33,091 nucleotides of DNA, from positions 1 to 33,091 of IMG/VR virus record IMGVR_UViG_3300042502_000251; one strand, given 5' to 3'. Source of the stretch: a virus. The notes under the pieces were generated by a model, which worked only from the letters and a program-made list of their open reading frames with translations, ran no database searches and was not told where the DNA came from. The translations under genes were made by a program, and so were the position numbers. Positions 15,989 to 31,743 of this stretch are shown here, piece by piece; within the stretch, counting starts at the first letter, position 1; each line of letters opens with the position of its first letter.

Positions 15989-16010
15989 TTAAAAAAGTTT
16001 TCTATATTTG
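15980..16010 (+). promoter_or_regulatory. Promoter of structured leader A
   Basis: TTTG at 15980-15983 (-33) and TATATTTG at 16003-16010 (-7) are separated by 19 bases, an excellent match to the Bacteroidota vegetative promoter. It lies at the end of the methyltransferase gene and drives leader A and the gene at 16112. Confidence 0.75.
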
Positions 16011-16019
16011 CAAAACAAT

Positions 16020-16100
16020 CTGGTCAGAGATTGATAAAAAAACTATAATCGATCCTAATTTTGCCTACTCTGACCAGTAGGATTTAAGTTAGGATTTTTT
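16020..16100 (+). promoter_or_regulatory. Structured 5' leader A (pseudoknot-type, with terminator-like end)
   Basis: Arm CTGGTCAGAG (16020-16029) begins 9 nt after the -7 box and is perfectly complementary to CTCTGACCAG (16068-16077). The latter overlaps the loop CTGACC of a hairpin CCTACT (16064-16069)/AGTAGG (16076-16081). That hairpin is enclosed by ATCCTAA (16052-16058)/TTAGGAT (16089-16095), which runs into six T residues. The arm and inner hairpin cannot both be fully paired, so this could act as a pseudoknot or as an arm-controlled terminator. The gene starts at 16112. Confidence 0.65.
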
Positions 16101-16111
16101 AATTAAACATT

Positions 16112-16555
16112 ATGAGTAAAGATTTATTCCAGTTAATGCGCCAACAAGAGATTGACACGCAAAACTTTTTACCAAACCGACTTGAGATCCAGCTATCTGC
16201 AAAAACATTCATCAAAGATTTATTAGACGCTGGAGAAACAGACAAATTTGAACTACTAGCGCAAGCCAAACGAATGGGCGAAGCGTTGGAAGTGATTAAC
16301 GCTGAACTTTTAAAAGTACTCCCACAAGAAAACTTTGAGGCTTACGGACTTAAAGGAACCTACCGAAGCGGTGGCGAAACAATTAACTACAAAGATTGCG
16401 AAGTTTGGAGTGATATTAACCGAGAGTTAAAAGAACGTGAGGAACTTCTTAAACTAGCTTTGAAATCGCATAATGAAATATACGATGAGGCAGGAGTACA
16501 AGTGCCTAAAGTATCAACAACGCCTCGCAAAAGTAGTTTGGCTATATCATTTTAA
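16112..16555 (+). CDS. Unknown early protein with coiled-coil segments
   Basis: This 147-residue protein is helical with charged heptad-like stretches (KFELLAQAKRMGEALEVI and a NRELKEREELLKLALKSH helix) and a Ser/Thr-rich basic C-terminus (TTPRKSSLAISF). It has its own promoter and structured leader, and precedes the SSB-like gene. The neighbourhood suggests a DNA metabolism role. A relation to other phage coiled-coil replication proteins is possible, but I see no motif that proves it. Confidence 0.75.
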   Translation: MSKDLFQLMRQQEIDTQNFLPNRLEIQLSAKTFIKDLLDAGETDKFELLAQAKRMGEALEVINAELLKVLPQENFEAYGLKGTYRSGGETINYKDCEVWSDINRELKEREELLKLALKSHNEIYDEAGVQVPKVSTTPRKSSLAISF

Positions 16556-16568
16556 ATTACTATATTTA
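16537..16568 (+). promoter_or_regulatory. Promoter of the SSB-like gene
   Basis: TTTG at 16537-16540 and TATATTTA at 16561-16568 are 20 bases apart. The -7 box has A instead of the final G, so it is a slightly weaker match to the consensus. It lies across the end of the previous gene and drives leader B and the gene at 16635. Confidence 0.55.
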
Positions 16569-16578
16569 CATTTCATAA

Positions 16579-16616
16579 TTAACCGATGCAAGGTTCGGGC
16601 ATCTTAACTCCGATCC
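16579..16616 (+). promoter_or_regulatory. Structured 5' leader B (weaker case)
   Basis: TTAA-CC-GATGC (16579-16589) can pair with GCATC-TTAA (16599-16607), leaving a CC bulge. The 9-base loop contains GGTTCGG (16592-16598), which can pair six of seven positions with CCGATCC at 16610-16616. This is a hairpin whose loop pairs with a downstream segment, a mirror of leaders A, C and D. The match is shorter and imperfect, so this call is tentative. Confidence 0.35.
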
Positions 16617-16634
16617 ATAAACAAATATTTTATT

Positions 16635-17336
16635 ATGAGTACTTCAAACAGACGTGCAGCCTTTGCACAACCACAAACAAATCCAGCCACTAAATTTATC
16701 GAGTGGAAATCAAACGACAAATGTTTCAACTATTACGACAAAGAAGCGCAGAAAAATGTAGAAATACCTTTGCCTTTTAAGTTCTTAGTCTTAGATGAAT
16801 TGCACACTATTAAAGGTTGGAATGATGCTTCCTCAAGCAATATTTACTCCAACGAAGTGAAATTCATTTCAAAAGAAGTAATGACAGTTAAACCTTTCAA
16901 GGGTAACGAAATTGCCAAAGGTTATTACAAAGACATTAAGGATAAAGTTGTAGCTGCTGGAGGACATTACACCAAGTCTATTTATGTAATGCTTGAGGAT
17001 GGTTCACTAGCTAATATATCACTTAAAGGATCTGGAGTTCAAAAGTGGGGAGATTTCACGCAGAAAACACGCAACAGACTTGCTGATGAATGGGTAATAG
17101 TTGCCAAAGCAGAAGATGGTAAAAAAGGAGCAGTTAAGTTCTCAACACCAAGTTTCTCTTTTGTAAACTCTATTTCAGATGAAGAAGCTAATATGGCAGA
17201 CGAAGCGTTCAACATATTGGAATCATACCTTAAAACATACTTAGCAAAAGCAGATATTGATGTTGTATTAAATGGAGATATAGCACAAGACTTTAATGAT
17301 ATGCAGGATGCCGATGATGATGGATTAGACTTCTAA
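16635..17336 (+). CDS. SSB-like single-stranded DNA-binding protein
   Basis: This is a 233-residue protein. The C-terminus is acidic and ends DDDGLDF, closely like the protein-docking tails of bacterial SSBs (acidic stretch ending in Phe). The body (about 25-165) is mixed beta with aromatic residues (KCFNYYDKEA, then FKFLVLDEL, KGYYKDI and YVMLEDGSL) as in OB-fold phage SSBs. Its gene lies between the gene at 16112 and the origin-like region and primase. It would coat single-stranded DNA at phage forks and recruit partners through the tail. Fold assignment is by pattern, the tail is directly visible. Confidence 0.7.
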   Translation: MSTSNRRAAFAQPQTNPATKFIEWKSNDKCFNYYDKEAQKNVEIPLPFKFLVLDELHTIKGWNDASSSNIYSNEVKFISKEVMTVKPFKGNEIAKGYYKDIKDKVVAAGGHYTKSIYVMLEDGSLANISLKGSGVQKWGDFTQKTRNRLADEWVIVAKAEDGKKGAVKFSTPSFSFVNSISDEEANMADEAFNILESYLKTYLAKADIDVVLNGDIAQDFNDMQDADDDGLDF

Positions 17337-17358
17337 ACGCCAAACAACACAACTAATC

Positions 17359-17386
17359 AAAGCCACCTTAATCGGTGGCTTTTTTT
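17359..17386 (+). terminator. Intrinsic terminator after the SSB-like gene
   Basis: A 9-bp perfect stem, AAAGCCACC at 17359-17367 and GGTGGCTTT at 17374-17382, has the loop TTAATC and continues in T residues to 17386. It isolates the SSB transcript from the iteron region. Confidence 0.9.
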
Positions 17387-17389
17387 ATT

Positions 17390-17578
17390 ATAGTAAACAT
17401 TATGAGTGTTTCCCCTATACCCTTTACAAAACAGAGTTTATAAATTTAATAGGGGGGGTATCAAAATCAAAATAAATGTTTACTATGTTTACTTTGCTTT
17501 GTTAGCTGCCTATTTTATTGAGTTATTTAAGTAATCATTTTAAATAAAATGTTTACTATAAAAAAAAATGTTTACTAT
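17390..17578. repeat. Iteron-like 11-bp repeats, candidate replication origin
   Basis: The 11-mer ATGTTTACTAT occurs perfectly four times: inverted at 17390-17400, and direct at 17476-17486, 17549-17559 and 17568-17578. A fifth copy with one change (ATGTTTACTTT) is at 17485-17495. They lie in the only long gene-free stretch (17337-17703), between a terminator and the primase-helicase gene; the last copy touches the promoter of that gene. The region also has a run of seven G (17452-17458) whose GGGTAT can pair with ATACCC at 17417-17422. An origin bound by a phage initiator, or repressor operators, would both fit. Confidence 0.6.
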
Positions 17579-17610
17579 TGTATTTATATTGGTTTTTATT
17601 TTTATATTTG
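17578..17610 (+). promoter_or_regulatory. Promoter of structured leader C
   Basis: TATATTTG at 17603-17610 is a perfect -7 box. A TTG at 17578-17580 lies 22 bases upstream as a possible -33 element and abuts the last iteron, so a protein bound to the iterons could control this promoter. Confidence 0.6.
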
Positions 17611-17620
17611 CGAATGTAGT

Positions 17621-17687
17621 CTGGAAGCTATTATAAGAAATTATCAATGCCACTCTTTCACGACTTCCAGCGTGTTTGAGTGGCATT
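17621..17687 (+). promoter_or_regulatory. Structured 5' leader C (pseudoknot-type)
   Basis: Arm CTGGAAG (17621-17627) begins 10 nt after the -7 box. A hairpin follows: outer stem AATGCCACTC (17646-17655)/GAGTGGCATT (17678-17687), symmetrical TTT/TTT internal loop, inner stem CACG (17659-17662)/CGTG (17671-17674), and loop ACTTCCAG. The loop's CTTCCAG (17664-17670) is perfectly complementary to the arm, giving an H-type pseudoknot. The coding start is at 17704, so the structure lies wholly in the leader. Confidence 0.7.
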
Positions 17688-17703
17688 AACCTTTTATGTA
17701 TTT

Positions 17704-20064
17704 ATGGAATATAAAATTTCAGTATTTAAAGACCTTTTAAAATCTAAGGATGTACCCTACATTGTAGATTTAGAAAAAATTATCCAACGCATTAAAGTTG
17801 GTAAGTCAATTACAATTATTGACAAAGTTAGAAATGCAACCAATAAAAAAGATGCAGACCTTATAAAACAGAAATTGCCTTGCATTTTATTTGCTGGAGA
17901 ATTTTCAGAGCGCAACGGAAATAGCCTTGTTAATCATTCCGGACTTATGTGTGTTGATTTTGACAAATACGAAAACGAGCAGGTTATGATTGAGCATCGG
18001 GCGATACTTGAGCGAAATCCTCATTTTTTACTTTTATTTACTTCCCCATCCGGGAAAGGAATTAAAGGAGTAGTAAAAATACCAAACGCAAATAAAGAAA
18101 CGCATCCAAAGTATTTTACTGCATTTCAAAAAGAGTTTGATTTTGATTATTGGGATAAGTCTTGCTCAAATGTTGATAGGGTTTGTTACGAATCATACGA
18201 TCCAAATATATTTATTAATTACGATGCTATTGAATTTGCACCAAACTTAATTGATGTAGGTTATAGCGTTACAGAAAAAACTCCTTTAATACCTATAACC
18301 GATGAAGATAAGATAATTGAAAAGATAATGTCTTTTGATTGGAAAAAAGATTTTGTAGAGGGAGAGAGAAACGCCTTTATTTTTGATTTGGCTGGAATGT
18401 TTTGCGAGTATGGAGTTAGCCAAACAACTGCCGAGAATTATATTATTAACAACGTTGTAATTGGAGATTTTTCAGAAGCAGAGGCAAAGACCACAATCAA
18501 AAGCGGATATAAAAAACGCAACTTTGATAGTAAATTCTTTGAGGATTACCAAAAAATTGATAAGGTTAGAGTTGATTTAAAAAGAGGAAAAGATGCAGTA
18601 ATTAAAAAATACGGTATTACGGAGGATACTTTTGATGAAATAAAGGAAGTATTAGAACACGACGATTTCTGGTTCACTTCCTGCGATAAAAGCGGAAAGG
18701 AAAAGGTAACAATCGACGCGTTAAAGTATAAGTTTTTTTTAGAGCGCAACGGATATAAAAAACACTACCCAAACGATACACAAAAGCCAACTTGGGTTTA
18801 TATTAATTCAAATAAAGTGCGAATTACCTCCGTTGAAATTATCAAAGACTTTGTTCTTAATTACCTATTGGATAAAAAAGAGTTTGAAGTGTGGAACTAC
18901 TGCGCTAAATATCAAAACTTATTTAATGAAAACTTCCTTTTAATGCTTGAATCAATCGATTTAAAGATGTTAAACGATGACCGGCACAAATCTTATATTG
19001 CTTACAAAAATGGTGTCTTAGAAGTAACAAAAAACGAGTGTAAATTAATTGATTACATCGATGTTGATTTTTATATTTGGGAAAATCACATTTTGGATCG
19101 TGATTTTGTGGTATTGGATGAATTTGATAATGACTACAAATCTTTTATTAAGAATATATCTAACGAATCCGAACTACCAACCGAGAGCGTTATAGGTTAC
19201 CTAATATCAACTTACAAAAATCGTTCAAATAATAAGGCTATAATTTTAAATGATGAAGTTATTTCAGAGAATCCAGAGGGAGGAACCGGCAAAGGAGTTT
19301 TTGTGCAAGGTATTAGCCAAATAAGAAAAACAAGTATTATCGATGGTAAGTTATTTGATGGTAAAAAGTCTTTTCCTTATCAAACCGTTTCACTAGATAC
19401 AAAGATTTTAGTGTTTGATGATGTTATTAAGAACTTTAATTTTGAGGAAAAGTTTAGTTTGGTAACAGAGGGATTGACTTTGGAGCGTAAAAATAAGGAT
19501 GCAATTAAGTTAAATGTACACGAAAGCCCGAAGTTGGTTATATCGACAAATTACGCTATTCGTGGGGAGGGTAATAGCCACGACCGAAGAAGATACGAGT
19601 TGGAGATAGCGCAATATTACGGAAAGGACTTAACTCCAGAGGATGAGTTTAAACGCCAGTTATTTGATGATTGGGATATAACAGACTTTCAAAAGTTTGA
19701 TAATTATATGGTTTATTGTTTGCAGTTATTTTTAAGTAGTGGACTAGTTAAGCAAAATGCTAAGAATATTAAGATGCGGAAGTTTATTGCTGAAACTGCT
19801 ATGGAGTTCTACGAATTTATAAAGGATCCGGAAGTGGTCCTACAAAATGAAAGGCTAGATAAAAAGATAATTTTTGACAAGTTTGTGGAGGAATATCCAG
19901 ACTTTAAAAAATGGCTTACACGTAAGAAGTTTAATTTGTGGGTTCAAAAATATTGTTCATTTATGGGCTTTGAATACATAAGCGATACTTCCAACGGGAT
20001 GCAATGGTTTATTATCAAAAGCGGAATAATAAAAGAGGATGAAGATAACGATATAATGTTTTAG
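17704..20064 (+). CDS. Primase-helicase (BT4734-like N-terminus, SF3-type helicase)
   Basis: I choose the ATG at 17704 over a GTG at 17680 that lies in the 3' arm of the leader hairpin. The product is 786 residues. Residues ~45-180 resemble the BT4734/VirE-like primase-associated domain (CVDFDKYE with D85 and D87; SPSGKGIKG at 114-122). The C-terminal half is a helicase like those of phage D5/DUF5906 proteins: Walker A GGTGKG at 526-531, Walker B VFDD at 570-573, and STN at 614-616, then HDRRRYELE. It would prime and unwind phage DNA. It has its own promoter and leader beside the iterons and ends at a terminator. Confidence 0.85.
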   Translation: MEYKISVFKDLLKSKDVPYIVDLEKIIQRIKVGKSITIIDKVRNATNKKDADLIKQKLPCILFAGEFSERNGNSLVNHSGLMCVDFDKYENEQVMIEHRAILERNPHFLLLFTSPSGKGIKGVVKIPNANKETHPKYFTAFQKEFDFDYWDKSCSNVDRVCYESYDPNIFINYDAIEFAPNLIDVGYSVTEKTPLIPITDEDKIIEKIMSFDWKKDFVEGERNAFIFDLAGMFCEYGVSQTTAENYIINNVVIGDFSEAEAKTTIKSGYKKRNFDSKFFEDYQKIDKVRVDLKRGKDAVIKKYGITEDTFDEIKEVLEHDDFWFTSCDKSGKEKVTIDALKYKFFLERNGYKKHYPNDTQKPTWVYINSNKVRITSVEIIKDFVLNYLLDKKEFEVWNYCAKYQNLFNENFLLMLESIDLKMLNDDRHKSYIAYKNGVLEVTKNECKLIDYIDVDFYIWENHILDRDFVVLDEFDNDYKSFIKNISNESELPTESVIGYLISTYKNRSNNKAIILNDEVISENPEGGTGKGVFVQGISQIRKTSIIDGKLFDGKKSFPYQTVSLDTKILVFDDVIKNFNFEEKFSLVTEGLTLERKNKDAIKLNVHESPKLVISTNYAIRGEGNSHDRRRYELEIAQYYGKDLTPEDEFKRQLFDDWDITDFQKFDNYMVYCLQLFLSSGLVKQNAKNIKMRKFIAETAMEFYEFIKDPEVVLQNERLDKKIIFDKFVEEYPDFKKWLTRKKFNLWVQKYCSFMGFEYISDTSNGMQWFIIKSGIIKEDEDNDIMF

Positions 20065-20084
20065 TTGGCTATTAAAATAGCCAA
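20065..20084 (+). terminator. Terminator after the primase-helicase gene
   Basis: A perfect hairpin, TTGGCTAT at 20065-20072 and ATAGCCAA at 20077-20084, begins right after the stop and is followed by AAATACTTTT. The T-run is displaced, so termination may be partial. Confidence 0.65.
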
Positions 20085-20114
20085 AAATACTTTTAATTAT
20101 TGAAAATGATTTTG

Positions 20115-20122
20115 TATCTTTG
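20115..20122 (+). promoter_or_regulatory. Candidate promoter -7 box before leader D
   Basis: TATCTTTG matches TAnnTTTG. The nearest TTG upstream (20100-20102) is only 12 bases away, too close for a normal -33, so the -33 element is unclear. It lies 8 nt before the arm of leader D, in line with the other leaders. Confidence 0.5.
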
Positions 20123-20130
20123 AAAAAGCA

Positions 20131-20199
20131 AGTAGGACTGCTAACAAAATTTATTACAATTCCCGATTATTACAGATGTCCTACTCTGTTTTAATCGGG
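20131..20199 (+). promoter_or_regulatory. Structured 5' leader D (pseudoknot-type)
   Basis: Arm AGTAGGAC (20131-20138) is perfectly complementary to GTCCTACT (20178-20185). That sequence forms the loop of a hairpin with outer stem CCCGATTA (20162-20169)/TAATCGGG (20192-20199), a symmetrical TT/TT internal loop, and inner stem ACAG (20172-20175)/CTGT (20186-20189). The layout is the same as in leader C with no sequence shared in the stems. A T-rich stretch follows, then the ATG at 20217. Confidence 0.7.
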
Positions 20200-20216
20200 T
20201 TTTATATTTTAATGTT

Positions 20217-20735
20217 ATGGAAGTTTGGAAAACAATTAATGATTTTAACAATTATGAAGTGTCGTCTTATGGAAGTGTAAGAAGAAAGAAATGTCAGATT
20301 ATTTATTCTAATGGTATGGTAACTAATTACAAAGAAAAGTTATTAAATCAAGAATTGGTTAGAAAAATTTATAAAAGAGTTACTTTAAGTCAGAATAATA
20401 TTCAAAAAAGATACCAAGTACATAGATTAGTAGCTATGTATTTTATTCCAAATAATGAAAATAAACCTTGTGTAAATCATATTGATGGAGATGGAAAAAA
20501 CAATAATATTCTAAATTTAGAATGGGTATCTTATTCAGAAAATGAAAGGCACTCTTATGATGTTTTAGGTAAAATAAATTCAAATAGAAAATTGACAGAA
20601 TTTGATTTAATTGATATTAGGCAAAATTGTGTAAAAGGAAAAAATAGTAATGTTAAAAATTTTTCAAATAAATATTGTGTGAATGTTACTGTTATTTATA
20701 ATGTTTTAAAAAATAAATATTATGTTACAACTTAG
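20217..20735 (+). CDS. HNH homing endonuclease (NUMOD4-HNH type)
   Basis: This is a 172-residue free-standing endonuclease. Residues 2-60 look like a NUMOD4 DNA-binding module (VWKTINDFNNYEVSSYGSVR). The HNH nuclease core is VHRLVAMYFIP (H69), CVNHIDGDGKNNN (H88 and Asn 95-97) and LEWVSYSENERHS. The C-terminal part (about 122-172) is a likely helix-turn-helix. Such enzymes cut DNA to spread their own gene. It is richer in A+T than its neighbours, and its end overlaps the helicase start by 14 bases. This suggests insertion between leader D and the helicase gene, which it now shares. Confidence 0.85.
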   Translation: MEVWKTINDFNNYEVSSYGSVRRKKCQIIYSNGMVTNYKEKLLNQELVRKIYKRVTLSQNNIQKRYQVHRLVAMYFIPNNENKPCVNHIDGDGKNNNILNLEWVSYSENERHSYDVLGKINSNRKLTEFDLIDIRQNCVKGKNSNVKNFSNKYCVNVTVIYNVLKNKYYVTT

Positions 20736-22002
20736 AGATTATCAAGTCAAGTTGGCTACTGAAGGTTGTGATATTTTAAAAAGAAAGGGTTTAGTTTATT
20801 TCGCACTTCAGGTTCGTGTCGGCAAAACATTAACCGCACTCCAGACCGCGAAATTATTTCAAGCTAAGCGAGTATTGTTTTTAACAAAAAAGAAAGCAAT
20901 ATCCAGTATTCAATGGGATTACGACAACTTTGGATTTGACTTTGATTTAACAATTATAAACGATGAGAGTTTACATTTGGTCAATAAAGAGTTTGATTTA
21001 GTGATCCACGATGAACACCACCGATTTGGTGCATACCCTAAACCGAACGCAGTAGCAAAATTATTTAAGCAAAAATATTCGCATTTACCAATGATATTTT
21101 TAAGCGGAACGCCAACCGCTGAAAGTCACTCACAATGGTATCATCAATTTTGGGTAAGTGATAACAGTCCTTTCAAAGAATATACAAACTTTTATAAATG
21201 GGCGGCAGATTTTGTAAATGTAAAAGTTAAACATCTTGGTTATGCCAAAGTAAATGATTATTCAGATGCCGATATTAAACACATCGATAGGCGAATTAAA
21301 TACTTTATCTTAACTTTTACTCAAGAACAGGCGGGATTTACTTCAACAGTTAATGAAATGGTTTTGGAGGTTGAGATGAAGCCAATTACCTATCAAATTA
21401 TTGAAAGGCTTAAAAAGGATTTGGTTGTAAAAAATCCACAAGGACAAATAATTTTAGCCGATACTGGCGTTAAATTAATGCAGAAAGTCCACCAGCTTTC
21501 AAGTGGAACGTGTAAATTTGAGGATGGCACGAGCAAAGTAATTGACTACTCAAAAGCGGAGTTTATAAGAGATAATTTTAAAGAAGTAAAGATTGGTATA
21601 TTTTATAAATTTAAAGAGGAATTTAATGCCTTAAAATCGATTTTAGGGAATAAGTTAACCGATAACCTAGAGCAGTTTAATACAACAGACAAATGTATCG
21701 CTTTACAAATTGTTTCTGGGCGTGAGGGAATAAGTTTAAAAGAGGCAAAATATTTAGTCTATTACAATATTGATTTTTCAAGTGTCAGTTATTGGCAAAG
21801 TAGGGATAGACTTACTACAATGCAAAGAAAAGAAAACGAGATATTTTGGTTATTTTCCAAAGGAGGAATAGAATATAAAATTTATAAAACAGTTTTGCAA
21901 AAAAAAGATTATACACTTAACCTATTTAAAAAAGATGCTGGAATCAAAAATACAAACCAAAATAAAAAAGAAGTTGGAAGAAAAGGGGTATTTAGTAGTT
22001 AA
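20722..22002 (+). CDS. SF2 DEAD/DEAH-type DNA helicase
   Basis: This 426-residue ATPase has a Q-motif-like LRDYQ at the start, Walker A QVRVGKT (30-36), motif II DEHH (97-100), motif III SGTPT (128-132), and a late VSGREGISL then QSRDRLTTMQR as motifs V and VI. This is the small SF2 helicase common in phage replication blocks, which unwinds DNA or remodels protein-DNA complexes. The start ATG lies in the end of the HNH gene. Its end overlaps the VRR-NUC gene by 68 bases in another frame, so the two are coupled, as is often seen for these partners. Confidence 0.9.
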   Translation: MLQLRDYQVKLATEGCDILKRKGLVYFALQVRVGKTLTALQTAKLFQAKRVLFLTKKKAISSIQWDYDNFGFDFDLTIINDESLHLVNKEFDLVIHDEHHRFGAYPKPNAVAKLFKQKYSHLPMIFLSGTPTAESHSQWYHQFWVSDNSPFKEYTNFYKWAADFVNVKVKHLGYAKVNDYSDADIKHIDRRIKYFILTFTQEQAGFTSTVNEMVLEVEMKPITYQIIERLKKDLVVKNPQGQIILADTGVKLMQKVHQLSSGTCKFEDGTSKVIDYSKAEFIRDNFKEVKIGIFYKFKEEFNALKSILGNKLTDNLEQFNTTDKCIALQIVSGREGISLKEAKYLVYYNIDFSSVSYWQSRDRLTTMQRKENEIFWLFSKGGIEYKIYKTVLQKKDYTLNLFKKDAGIKNTNQNKKEVGRKGVFSS

Positions 22003-24157: not shown

Positions 24158-24595
24158 GTGATTGAACAACTTGCACAACGAGATAGCGACTGGCGATTGA
24201 TGGCTTTCAAAATTACGAAAGACAAAGACCTTGCTGACGATATTGTGCAGGAGATGTACTTAAAAGCGCATACGTTTAAGAATATAAATAATTCGTACAT
24301 TTACACGATTTTAAGAAATTTATTTTACGATAGTTTAAAGACAAAAGAAATACTAATCGATGACTTTACAAGGTTTGAGATTATTGACGATGAATACGTT
24401 ACGCTGCCAGAGTTTGATGAAATTTCAAAGCGGTTAACGTGGTACGAAAAAACAATGTTTGTTTGCTCAACATTAGAGGGGCAACGACCATTTTCAAGGC
24501 AAACAGGAATACACATCCAAACAGTTCACAGAATTAATAAAATGGTAAAAGAAAAATTGATATGGCAAGTAAAAAACCAAAAATCGGAACAATAG
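24158..24595 (+). CDS. Phage RNA polymerase sigma factor (ECF-like)
   Basis: The only good in-frame start is GTG at 24158. Of 145 residues, about 4-62 are sigma region 2 (KDKDLADDIVQEMYLKAH, then NNSYIYTILRNLFYDSLK), which binds the core polymerase and the -10 element. About 94-135 form a helix-turn-helix like region 4 (LTWYEKTMFVCSTLEGQRPF, then TGIHIQTVHRINKMVKEKL). It would redirect host polymerase to phage promoters. It lies directly before the packaging and tail genes, so control of late transcription is a reasonable inference. The next gene starts within it. Confidence 0.8.
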   Translation: MIEQLAQRDSDWRLMAFKITKDKDLADDIVQEMYLKAHTFKNINNSYIYTILRNLFYDSLKTKEILIDDFTRFEIIDDEYVTLPEFDEISKRLTWYEKTMFVCSTLEGQRPFSRQTGIHIQTVHRINKMVKEKLIWQVKNQKSEQ

Positions 24596-29232: not shown

Positions 29233-31743
29233 ATGAAAAACGTTGCATTATACATTTACATAGATGAGTTAATTGATGACGTTTTAACGCCAATTAGACA
29301 CCGTTTAGAATTGTTTGCCGATGAGTCAATTTCGGTTACTTCATCCATTCAAAATTTTAGGGATTTAGGTAAGATTTTTACGGACTACTCCAAAGCATTT
29401 ACTATTCCAGCTTCAGACCACAATAACAAAATTCTTTACCATTGGTATAATAGCGAAGTAGGAGCAACGGTTGTAGATTTACCTTTAAATTTAACCGACG
29501 CATTTGACCACAGAATAACTTATTTTGGATATATTGAAATTGACACCATTCCTTTTAGATTTGGAAAGTGGTCGTTGAAAGGAAGTAAGAAAACAGACAA
29601 TAAAATCGAAAGTTACTCGATAAACTTTACTGGTAATTTAGTGCAATTAAAGGAGCGTTTTAAAGACGACAAATTAAACTCACTAGCGTACTTTGAAGAT
29701 GGCGTGAGAATTAGTTACTACGATGAATTAAATCACTTCTATGACCTTGCAAATGTACAAGCAAGGGTAACAGATGATAACTACGATATACTTTACCCAT
29801 TAATTGGAACAAAAAGAAAATTATTTTTAACTTCGGGTGCAACCGCAGCGGATAATATTTCAACTACTGCGGGAAAATTATTGTTTAATGAGATATTTCC
29901 AGCGATAAGAGTTACCAAAGTTTTAGAGTATATTCAGGGAGCATACGGAATTACATTTACTGGCGCATTTATTGAAAGTTTGACTTTTAGTAAATTGTTT
30001 CTTTATCTTAAAAATCAAGATAATTTCACAATAAAACCTGAATTATTAAAAATAGATTTTACAAGTAAAGATGCGAACACAAGAATAGAAACTTTATTTG
30101 GTGGTTTTATAGCTACTGCAACTGGAATAGGATTTGCAAATCTAAATTTGGCAACCGATTTACTTACATTTAATTCAACATCAATAAATCAATTTTACAA
30201 TCCTCCATCAACTCCATCGGGATATATGCCAACTATTGTAAATACTAGATTTTTAACGCTAAAAATAACAACTGCGTCAGCAAATCCTTATAATGTATTT
30301 GTCTATAATAATGGTATTTTGTTTTCGTCATTTTCAAATTTAGTAGGTACACAAGAATTATCAATTATATCAAATCAAACGGCAAATAATTTAAGTCCAA
30401 TTTATTCGTTTACTTTTTTTGTAAGTAGTGAAATAGGAATCACATTTACAAGTGAATTAAAGCGAACAATAAAAAGAACTGGAGTTTTTAACCCGCCACC
30501 ATTTAGCGGAGGATTTAATGGAATTTATTCAGAGTATCAAATAGTAAAAGCGACAAGCGCAAGTCAAACAACAGTATCAAATATCGATATAAAATCATTC
30601 GTTCCTGATATTAACGTTGTTTCATTTATGGAGGGTTTAATAAAGATGTTTAATTTAATGGTAATTCCAACATCGGAAACTTCTTTCAACTTGCAACCTT
30701 TGCCCGATTATTATTTAGATGGTATTAATCACGATATTACCGAGTATGTAAATACGGAAAGCATAGAGATAAACCCTCCACAATTATTCAAGCGTATTGC
30801 GTTTAAATTTGAGAAGTCTGAAAATGCTTTAAATGAAATTTTTAGAGGTTTATTCAATAGAGAATATGGCGACTTAAATTTTGAAAATCAAAATAGCGCC
30901 TTTGCTGAAACTTACGAGGTAGCGTTACCTTTTGAGGATTTTATGTTTGACCGAGAAACTGGAACGGATTTTATTACTGCTACGATGTTTGATAAAAATA
31001 GTCAAGCGTATGTTCCAAAGCCGAGTTTAATTTATTGCAACGGAGTTCAGTCAGTAACGCCAGACATTAAAATTTCAAATACTATAACGACAAATGATAT
31101 ATCGGAGTATGTTAGGTTTTCAAATGAGTTACAATTAGCAGGAAGTGACTTAAATTACGTTCAATCTTTGAATTGGGGTGCTGAAATTTCCTCTTGGTTT
31201 TTAGATATAAATTTCAATGGATTATACGATAGTTTTTATTCAGATTATATTGAAAACCTATTTAATCAACGCACTAGAATATTGAAATTAAAAGCGATGC
31301 TTCCAACTTCTTTGATTTGTTTAATAAGATTAAAAGATAAATTAATTATATCAAATAAAAGGTACATAATTAATACAATGACTCCCGAATTAACTACTGG
31401 CGAAACTTCCTTTGAGTTGATTTTAGATAATAGCGAAGCACAACAAGAGGGCAGCGAAGTATTACGATTGACAAACATTCAAACGATGACACTTGACAAT
31501 ACGGCGCAATCAATCGAATTGCAGGTATTTATTAAGGACTTTGACTTGTGGCGTTCAAAAGCTGCGGCTGGTTTCCTAGCAGGAACTTATTCAAGCGGTG
31601 GAAATCAATACAAAGATGGACTTTTAAATGTTGCAGTTCCAGCAAATACAACTGGCGTTAATCGAACAGACAATGTATTACTAGAGTACTTTAAAGGAGC
31701 AGTTTCAACAACTATTTCAATCCAAATCAATCAATATGCTTAA
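29233..31743 (+). CDS. Large tail hub-like protein
   Basis: This 836-residue protein follows the distal tail-like gene and precedes the tape measure. It begins ALYIYIDELIDDVLTPIRHR, then FTDYSKAFTIPAS and GYIEIDTIPFRFGKWSLKG, the pattern of tail-hub or baseplate proteins with a start like phage Dit/Tal. The middle is Asn/Ser/Thr-rich. The last 136 residues are the part found again at 2-412. The stop overlaps the start of the small gene at 31736. No enzyme motif seen. Likely part of the tail tip that contacts the cell. Confidence 0.65.
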   Translation: MKNVALYIYIDELIDDVLTPIRHRLELFADESISVTSSIQNFRDLGKIFTDYSKAFTIPASDHNNKILYHWYNSEVGATVVDLPLNLTDAFDHRITYFGYIEIDTIPFRFGKWSLKGSKKTDNKIESYSINFTGNLVQLKERFKDDKLNSLAYFEDGVRISYYDELNHFYDLANVQARVTDDNYDILYPLIGTKRKLFLTSGATAADNISTTAGKLLFNEIFPAIRVTKVLEYIQGAYGITFTGAFIESLTFSKLFLYLKNQDNFTIKPELLKIDFTSKDANTRIETLFGGFIATATGIGFANLNLATDLLTFNSTSINQFYNPPSTPSGYMPTIVNTRFLTLKITTASANPYNVFVYNNGILFSSFSNLVGTQELSIISNQTANNLSPIYSFTFFVSSEIGITFTSELKRTIKRTGVFNPPPFSGGFNGIYSEYQIVKATSASQTTVSNIDIKSFVPDINVVSFMEGLIKMFNLMVIPTSETSFNLQPLPDYYLDGINHDITEYVNTESIEINPPQLFKRIAFKFEKSENALNEIFRGLFNREYGDLNFENQNSAFAETYEVALPFEDFMFDRETGTDFITATMFDKNSQAYVPKPSLIYCNGVQSVTPDIKISNTITTNDISEYVRFSNELQLAGSDLNYVQSLNWGAEISSWFLDINFNGLYDSFYSDYIENLFNQRTRILKLKAMLPTSLICLIRLKDKLIISNKRYIINTMTPELTTGETSFELILDNSEAQQEGSEVLRLTNIQTMTLDNTAQSIELQVFIKDFDLWRSKAAAGFLAGTYSSGGNQYKDGLLNVAVPANTTGVNRTDNVLLEYFKGAVSTTISIQINQYA

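Follow-up and report, generated by a model that had tools for sequence, protein, structure and literature searches.

Several described RNAs resemble, in one respect or another, the element reported here. The leader of phage T4 gene 32 is an H-type pseudoknot at the 5' end of a phage mRNA, near the transcription start, and is read by the gene's own single-stranded DNA-binding protein (SSB). RNA I and RNA II of plasmid ColE1 are intermolecular antisense partners in plasmid copy number control, and their loops of 6-7 nucleotides (nt) pair fully, with sequence free and structure recognized. The ompA and aprE leaders are stem-loop stabilizers at the extreme 5' end of their mRNAs. The putL and putR RNAs of phage HK022, about 70 nt at the start of transcripts from early phage promoters (putL lies just downstream of its promoter), consist of two stem-loops and suppress termination with no dedicated protein (PMC9378689). 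In the guanidine-IV riboswitch, a kissing loop within a leader RNA is proposed to control a terminator by promoting read-through, the closest design of kissing loop plus terminator (PMC11611296). The subject of this work is a set of three mRNA leaders at positions 16,020-20,199 of IMG/VR virus record IMGVR_UViG_3300042502_000251, of which the whole stretch analyzed (positions 1-33,091) is called the window.

Their sequences show the leaders to be copies of a single phage-specific structured RNA, about 85 nt long, in which two hairpins kiss loop to loop over 6-7 base pairs (bp); that this structured element is real is close to certain. Unlike the T4 gene 32 leader, it is a kissing loop placed before many genes, in phages that lack that SSB; unlike RNA I and RNA II, it is intramolecular and in cis, in mRNA leaders. 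The ompA and aprE leaders have no kissing partner, no terminator-like hairpin and no repeated phage cassette. Going by their description, the put RNAs, for which no kissing loop has been reported, occur in two copies per genome with shared sequence and act on distant terminators via the zinc-binding domain of RNA polymerase, whereas the present elements are free in sequence, stand in several copies at separate promoters and include a terminator-like hairpin. The guanidine-IV riboswitch binds a ligand, has conserved nucleotides and serves metabolic or transport genes, whereas in the phage element no conserved aptamer core was seen and no Rfam match was found (Rfam 15 gave 0 matches in the window at the gathering threshold and, with relaxed settings, 3 sub-threshold matches, none over a leader).

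From 5' to 3', the element comprises a -7 box (TAnnTTTG), a first hairpin (H1), an AU-rich linker of about 15-25 nt, a second hairpin (H2), a U-tract and the start codon. H1 has a stem (P1) of 4-9 bp and a loop of about 6-10 nt, and H2 an outer stem (P2) of 6-14 bp, a small internal loop, an inner stem (P3) of 3-8 bp and a loop of about 6-12 nt. Some elements have an extra small hairpin in the linker. The end of P2 lies 7-24 nt from the ATG in nearly all elements (mode 16-18), and the distance from the -7 box to the first paired base has a mode of 4 nt. Because the -7 consensus TAnnTTTG occupies -12 to -5 in F. psychrophilum, a relative of the host (PMC9723704), pairing is predicted to begin at about +1, the transcript start being placed by this spacing from the -7 box only. 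In a minority subtype (e.g. ACCGCCAA) P1 is missing and an arm of 8-12 nt at about +1 pairs directly with the H2 loop, mostly at the same offset from the -7 box. Across the elements compared, no nucleotides outside the promoter and the U-tract are common to all families.

Chance folding in AT-rich intergenic DNA would be a natural suspicion, as the AT content of the window is high and short pairings are easily spotted by eye. A first descriptor, consisting of arm, outer stem, internal loop, inner stem and complementary loop, was applied to the window together with 44 primase relatives (518 kb), where a score of at least 50 was reached 19 times on the + strand and never on the - strand; a five-fold larger shuffled control (2.59 Mb) gave three. 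In a larger set of 175 related phage sequences (2.04 Mb), promoter-linked matches scoring at least 48 numbered 119 on the + strand versus 0 on the - strand, and the promoter-anchored version, at scores of at least 52, gave 171 matches on the + (gene) strand versus 3 on the - strand, with none in two shuffled copies. Loci in this set overlap and the scan counts are not independent; 49 elements with less than 80% identity to one another have one common architecture. Score thresholds were picked after inspection of the data, with identical thresholds applied to every control. When upstream regions of orthologous genes were taken without selection for the element, it was present in 14 of 30 for the primase and 16 of 31 for the gene at 16112, and in none of the shuffles. 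P1 was no part of the first descriptor, so that its enrichment counts as an independent test: a P1 score of at least 8 was found in 61% of 31 non-redundant representatives, compared with 9.5% when flanks were shuffled.

Covariation gives the same picture. MAFFT shifts stems by 1-2 columns between distant families, and the formal pair count was therefore restricted to primase leaders. In 11 distinct ones, 91.3% of cells were paired versus 77.4% after shuffling, double-change cells numbered 42 versus 15.7, and the covariation score was 0.451, with 0.189 after shuffling and no more than 0.161 when partners were slid. Pairing of the kissing helix was complete (100%) in these leaders and included G-C/C-G and U-A/A-U swaps. 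A covariance model of P1, P2 and P3 built from primase leaders only also matched the leaders of the HNH gene (window 20115, E 1e-5) and of the gene at 16112 (window 16003, E 0.018), despite their differing sequences. A second model, from 84 matches and with the window leaders in its training set, recovered each of the three window leaders with E values no higher than 8e-7, along with elements in all four Muminvirus/Lillamyvirus genomes fetched. A double compensatory swap separates cultured Flavobacterium phages: the kissing sequences are GTGAGACG/CGTCTCAC in tooticki6-1, filifjonk9-1 and lillamy9-1 and GTGGAACG/CGTTCCAC in mymlan6-1, so that AG in one loop becomes GA and CT in the other becomes TC while the rest of the leader is almost the same. 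That structure is kept while sequence changes freely is thus strongly supported. Chance folds were not reproduced by the shuffled, opposite-strand or slid controls and would not account for compensatory swaps in cultured phages; we regard that explanation as refuted, with next to no probability left to it. The features of the three window leaders and the genes behind them are as follows.

16003..16010, + strand: -7 box of leader 1, TATATTTG, of the host primary sigma type (from the sequence and the F. psychrophilum consensus, PMC9723704)
16016..16033, + strand: H1 of leader 1, with P1 CAATCT/AGATTG at 16016/16028 and kissing loop GGTCAG at 16022-16027 (minimum free energy fold, RNAfold)
16051..16096, + strand: H2 of leader 1, with P2 at 16051-16061/16086-16096, P3 at 16064-16069/16076-16081 and kissing loop CTGACC at 16070-16075
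16095..16104, + strand: U-tract of leader 1, TTTTTTAATT, after H2, with the ATG at 16112 (from the sequence)
16112..16555, + strand: gene behind leader 1, 147 amino acids, conserved in Muminvirus
17603..17610, + strand: -7 box of leader 2, TATATTTG (from the sequence)
17616..17631, + strand: H1 of leader 2, with P1 GTAG/CTAT (one G-U) at 17616/17628 and kissing sequence CTGGAAG at 17621-17627
17646..17687, + strand: H2 of leader 2, with P2 at 17646-17655/17678-17687, P3 at 17659-17662/17671-17674 and kissing loop CTTCCAG at 17664-17670 (covariation and covariance models)
17704..20064, + strand: primase-helicase behind leader 2, with BT4734-like_N, PriCT_1 and DUF5906
20115..20122, + strand: -7 box of leader 3, TATCTTTG (from the sequence)
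20127..20142, + strand: H1 of leader 3, from the predicted +1, with P1 AGCA/TGCT at 20127/20139 and kissing sequence GTAGGAC at 20132-20138
20162..20199, + strand: H2 of leader 3, with P2 at 20162-20169/20192-20199, P3 at 20172-20176/20185-20189 and kissing sequence GTCCTAC at 20178-20184
20200..20210, + strand: U-tract of leader 3, TTTTATATTTT, with the ATG at 20217 (from the sequence)
20217..22002, + strand: NUMOD4/HNH endonuclease (20217-20735) and SF2 helicase (20722-22002) behind leader 3

Both hairpins of each leader are present in the RNAfold output, with z-scores of -4.5, -4.1 and -3.3 for leaders 1, 2 and 3, and the covariance model match to leader 1 spans 16003-16115. The 5' hairpins that enclose the kissing loops read CAATCT[GGTCAG]AGATTG, (G)TAG-T[CTGGAAG]-CTA(T) and AGCA-A[GTAGGAC]-TGCT, respectively. 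Relative to the predicted transcript start, pairing begins at +2, +2 and +1. P1 of leader 1 covaries, reading CAATAC/GTATTG in one relative (L055), and P1 of leader 3 reads AGCG/CGCT in another (L102).

A preliminary description of these leaders had placed -7 boxes at 16003, 17603 and 20115, each followed by an arm perfectly complementary over 7-10 bp to the loop of a later hairpin with outer stem, small internal loop and inner stem; the boxes, arms and hairpin design were found as given, at the coordinates named, and the complementarity was perfect in the descriptor used. It had called the leaders pseudoknot-type. The loop pairing stands, and the H-type fold does not, since P1 around the arm had been missed and the leaders are two kissing hairpins; the frequency of P1 speaks against a single-stranded 5' arm outside the minority subtype that lacks it. 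The leader 1 arm is complementary as claimed, and the kissing core within it is the 6 bp GGTCAG/CTGACC, as its outer bases pair inside their own hairpins in the RNAfold output. The U-tract after the second hairpin had been overlooked. The placement in front of replication genes holds for the three leaders, and the element is limited neither to such genes nor to this genome. The proposal of a shared RNA device kept by structure and not by sequence is strongly supported by the scans, the covariation, the covariance model and the cultured-phage swap, and the check it called for, homologous leaders with compensatory changes in related phages, was run and found them. A TATATTTG promoter at window 14208 has a short leader without a kissing element, and hence some promoters of this phage lack one.

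Within the element, H2 resembles an intrinsic terminator linked to the transcript's own 5' end, judging by its stem and the bases that follow it. Of the 8 nt directly following P2, at least five are T in 94% of representatives, relative to 10% of control gene starts at equal distance from the ATG, and the U-tract stays adjacent to P2 even where the ATG lies further off. Compared with hairpins located downstream of stop codons in these phages, H2 has a higher T frequency on its 3' side and a more favorable median energy (-16.9 versus -13.4 kcal/mol). A stable stem directly before a U-tract, the mark of an intrinsic terminator, is thus present, leader 2 of the window being a weak case. Promoter and U-tract hairpin occur together at 83 gene starts, of which 68 were called kissing elements, and about 12 of the remaining 15 also show loop pairing when judged by eye, which indicates that the terminator-like hairpin and the kissing partner travel together.

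We tentatively favor the reading that the leader is a promoter-proximal RNA attenuator or antiterminator that gates transcription, which we consider quite possible though short of probable. H2 would be a promoter-proximal intrinsic terminator; H1 with its kissing arm, transcribed first, could capture the H2 loop before the 3' half of H2 exits the polymerase, and the contact would then set the frequency of termination at H2, such that the leader would gate entry of RNA polymerase into the gene. As the genes must be expressed during infection, the contact would most likely weaken termination, making the leader an RNA-only antiterminator built into each promoter. The paired 5' nucleotides should also shield the read-through mRNA from 5'-end-dependent decay, and gating and 5'-end protection may hold together. 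A broader version, which we regard as speculative and rather unlikely in full, would be a phage-borne, protein-free promoter accessory in which RNA from +1 kisses the loop of the terminator that follows and the transcript's 5' end decides read-through, an interchangeable cassette at many promoters whose private loops avoid cross-pairing.

Several observations weigh against gating. The element is absent at about half of orthologous gene starts and is therefore dispensable for these genes. In leader 2, H2 is followed by merely a weak U-tract (AACCTTTT), and H2 could instead be a stabilizing fold accompanied by a U-rich signal for translation. The only pairing partner of the arm is the loop of H2 and not the stem, and no alternative upstream partner for the P2 strands was found clearly above chance (5' strand 6.12 versus 5.04 shuffled; 3' strand 6.86 versus 6.64). 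A classical attenuator, with strand exchange and a mutually exclusive antiterminator, is for these two reasons unlikely, and any effect should be kinetic, steric or on the polymerase. Such an effect is conceivable without strand exchange on the precedent of putRNA (PMC9378689).

The main rival, already raised in the preliminary description as a 5'-end mRNA stabilizer, stays live, and we consider it plausible if somewhat doubtful. Pairing from the first transcribed nucleotide together with the kissing lock would block host decay enzymes that depend on a free 5' end, and the long H2 and the kissing contact would serve merely to hold that end. The first paired base, in P1 or the arm, lies 4 nt (mode) past the -7 box, the predicted +1 on the F. 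psychrophilum map (PMC9723704), the P1-less subtype mostly keeps this offset, and the structure is kept with free sequence before many unrelated genes, all of which suits a stabilizer. So does the need of B. subtilis RppH for at least two unpaired 5' nucleotides (PMC3997798). However, leaders 1 and 2 of the window begin pairing at +2 and not +1, a plain hairpin at +1 would suffice, and the U-tract directly after H2 and its coupling to the kissing loop are left unexplained.

A further rival is an operator whose shape, and not its sequence, is recognized by a protein that controls translation of the gene behind it, much as T4 gp32 reads the pseudoknot in its own leader and Rom reads kissing loops. 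It would fit a structure without sequence conservation and an H2 that ends near the 30S landing site, and an SSB-like gene (16635) is situated among the leaders. Reading by this SSB-like protein, as had been suggested, is not supported: no homolog was found in the complete genomes of tooticki6-1 and mymlan6-1, both of which carry the element, which also speaks against autoregulation of the T4 gp32 type, and of 56 long loci that have an element 11 lack the protein. Its gene's own leader (window 16561-16634) is unlike the kissing element in sequence and architecture. Moreover, the element stands before genes of very different function, and there was no sign of start-codon sequestration, as the 30 nt that follow P2 pair with the leader no better than by chance; we judge a protein operator improbable. 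The SSB-like gene's leader forms a compact fold, AACC-GATGC-AAGGTTCGG-GCATC with CCGATCC downstream, behind TATATTTA, which among 11 relatives aligned is common only to L067.

It is very improbable that termination at H2 releases the leader as a free small RNA (about 85 nt) acting in trans as a decoy or by kissing leaders of co-infecting phages, with the gene served by read-through. H1 at +1 and H2 with its U-tract are typical small RNA ends, yet nearly every element lies at a fixed short distance before an ATG. Loops that cross-kiss within a genome occurred in 0 of 114 pairs (score at least 14) versus 4.4% between genomes, a suggestive difference that is not significant when gene family is held fixed by a family-preserving permutation (0 observed, 0.46 expected, P 0.61). 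The idea that the loops of one genome are mutually orthogonal was accordingly not retained.

Genes behind the elements encode, among others, primase-helicases, NUMOD4/HNH and GIY-YIG homing nucleases, SF2 helicases, VRR_NUC proteins, an MT-A70 methyltransferase, an AAA ATPase, DUF6291 and small unknown proteins. The leader family ACCGCCAA precedes several different genes, and hence promoter and leader move as a cassette. Four cultured virulent phages carry the element, and in three bacterial metagenome bins it is confined to phage contigs. In two sets of 41 flavobacterial genomes, a search that was not exhaustive gave no genuine element outside phage contigs: the sole strong match lay on a known phage contig, and 10 weaker matches lacked the kissing pairing and look like ordinary terminators or chance. 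A separate scan of 299 genomes was uninformative, because its strict filter failed to recover a known positive. One match in FPSV-S1 (L174:25680), with no downstream gene and no U-tract, was taken as false.

No earlier description of the element was found in the literature searched, a body that excludes most subscription papers. The leaders represent a large class of structured RNA that has apparently escaped description because almost no sequence is kept and because standard RNA searches disregard loop-to-loop helices such as its key one. The element marks many promoters of DNA-metabolism genes in phages of flavobacteria, bacteria that form a major environmental group and whose phage gene regulation is little known. 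Because it couples a terminator-like hairpin to the 5' end of the mRNA, control of termination or decay by RNA alone becomes open to direct test.

Some families have features of their own. Five elements (L011:4935, L015:4938, L021:5895, L040:198 and L063:3818) form a subtype in which the linker from H1 to H2 holds an additional short hairpin and some letters are conserved in part, namely CTACnTTAAAG following the arm and GGAGTGG around the second loop. In another family (L006:5908, L008:5910, L017:291, L136:3300 and L176:519), the H2 internal loop has UGAA opposite GGAU, a pairing compatible with tandem sheared G-A pairs and not seen in other families. The loop pair GGTCAG/CTGACC is constant in L058 and its relatives, before different genes and in distant phages, while the surrounding stems vary freely; this loop is perhaps ancestral or unusually stable.

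Elsewhere in the window, positions 1-412 recur at 31332-31743 with 400 of 412 bases identical, and the sequence beyond differs, the copies being followed by two different tape-measure-like genes (at 530 and 31867), as would result from joining a circular genome across two strains. A small protein with sigma-70 region 2 (PF04542) is encoded at 24158-24595 and is possibly a phage sigma factor for another class of genes.

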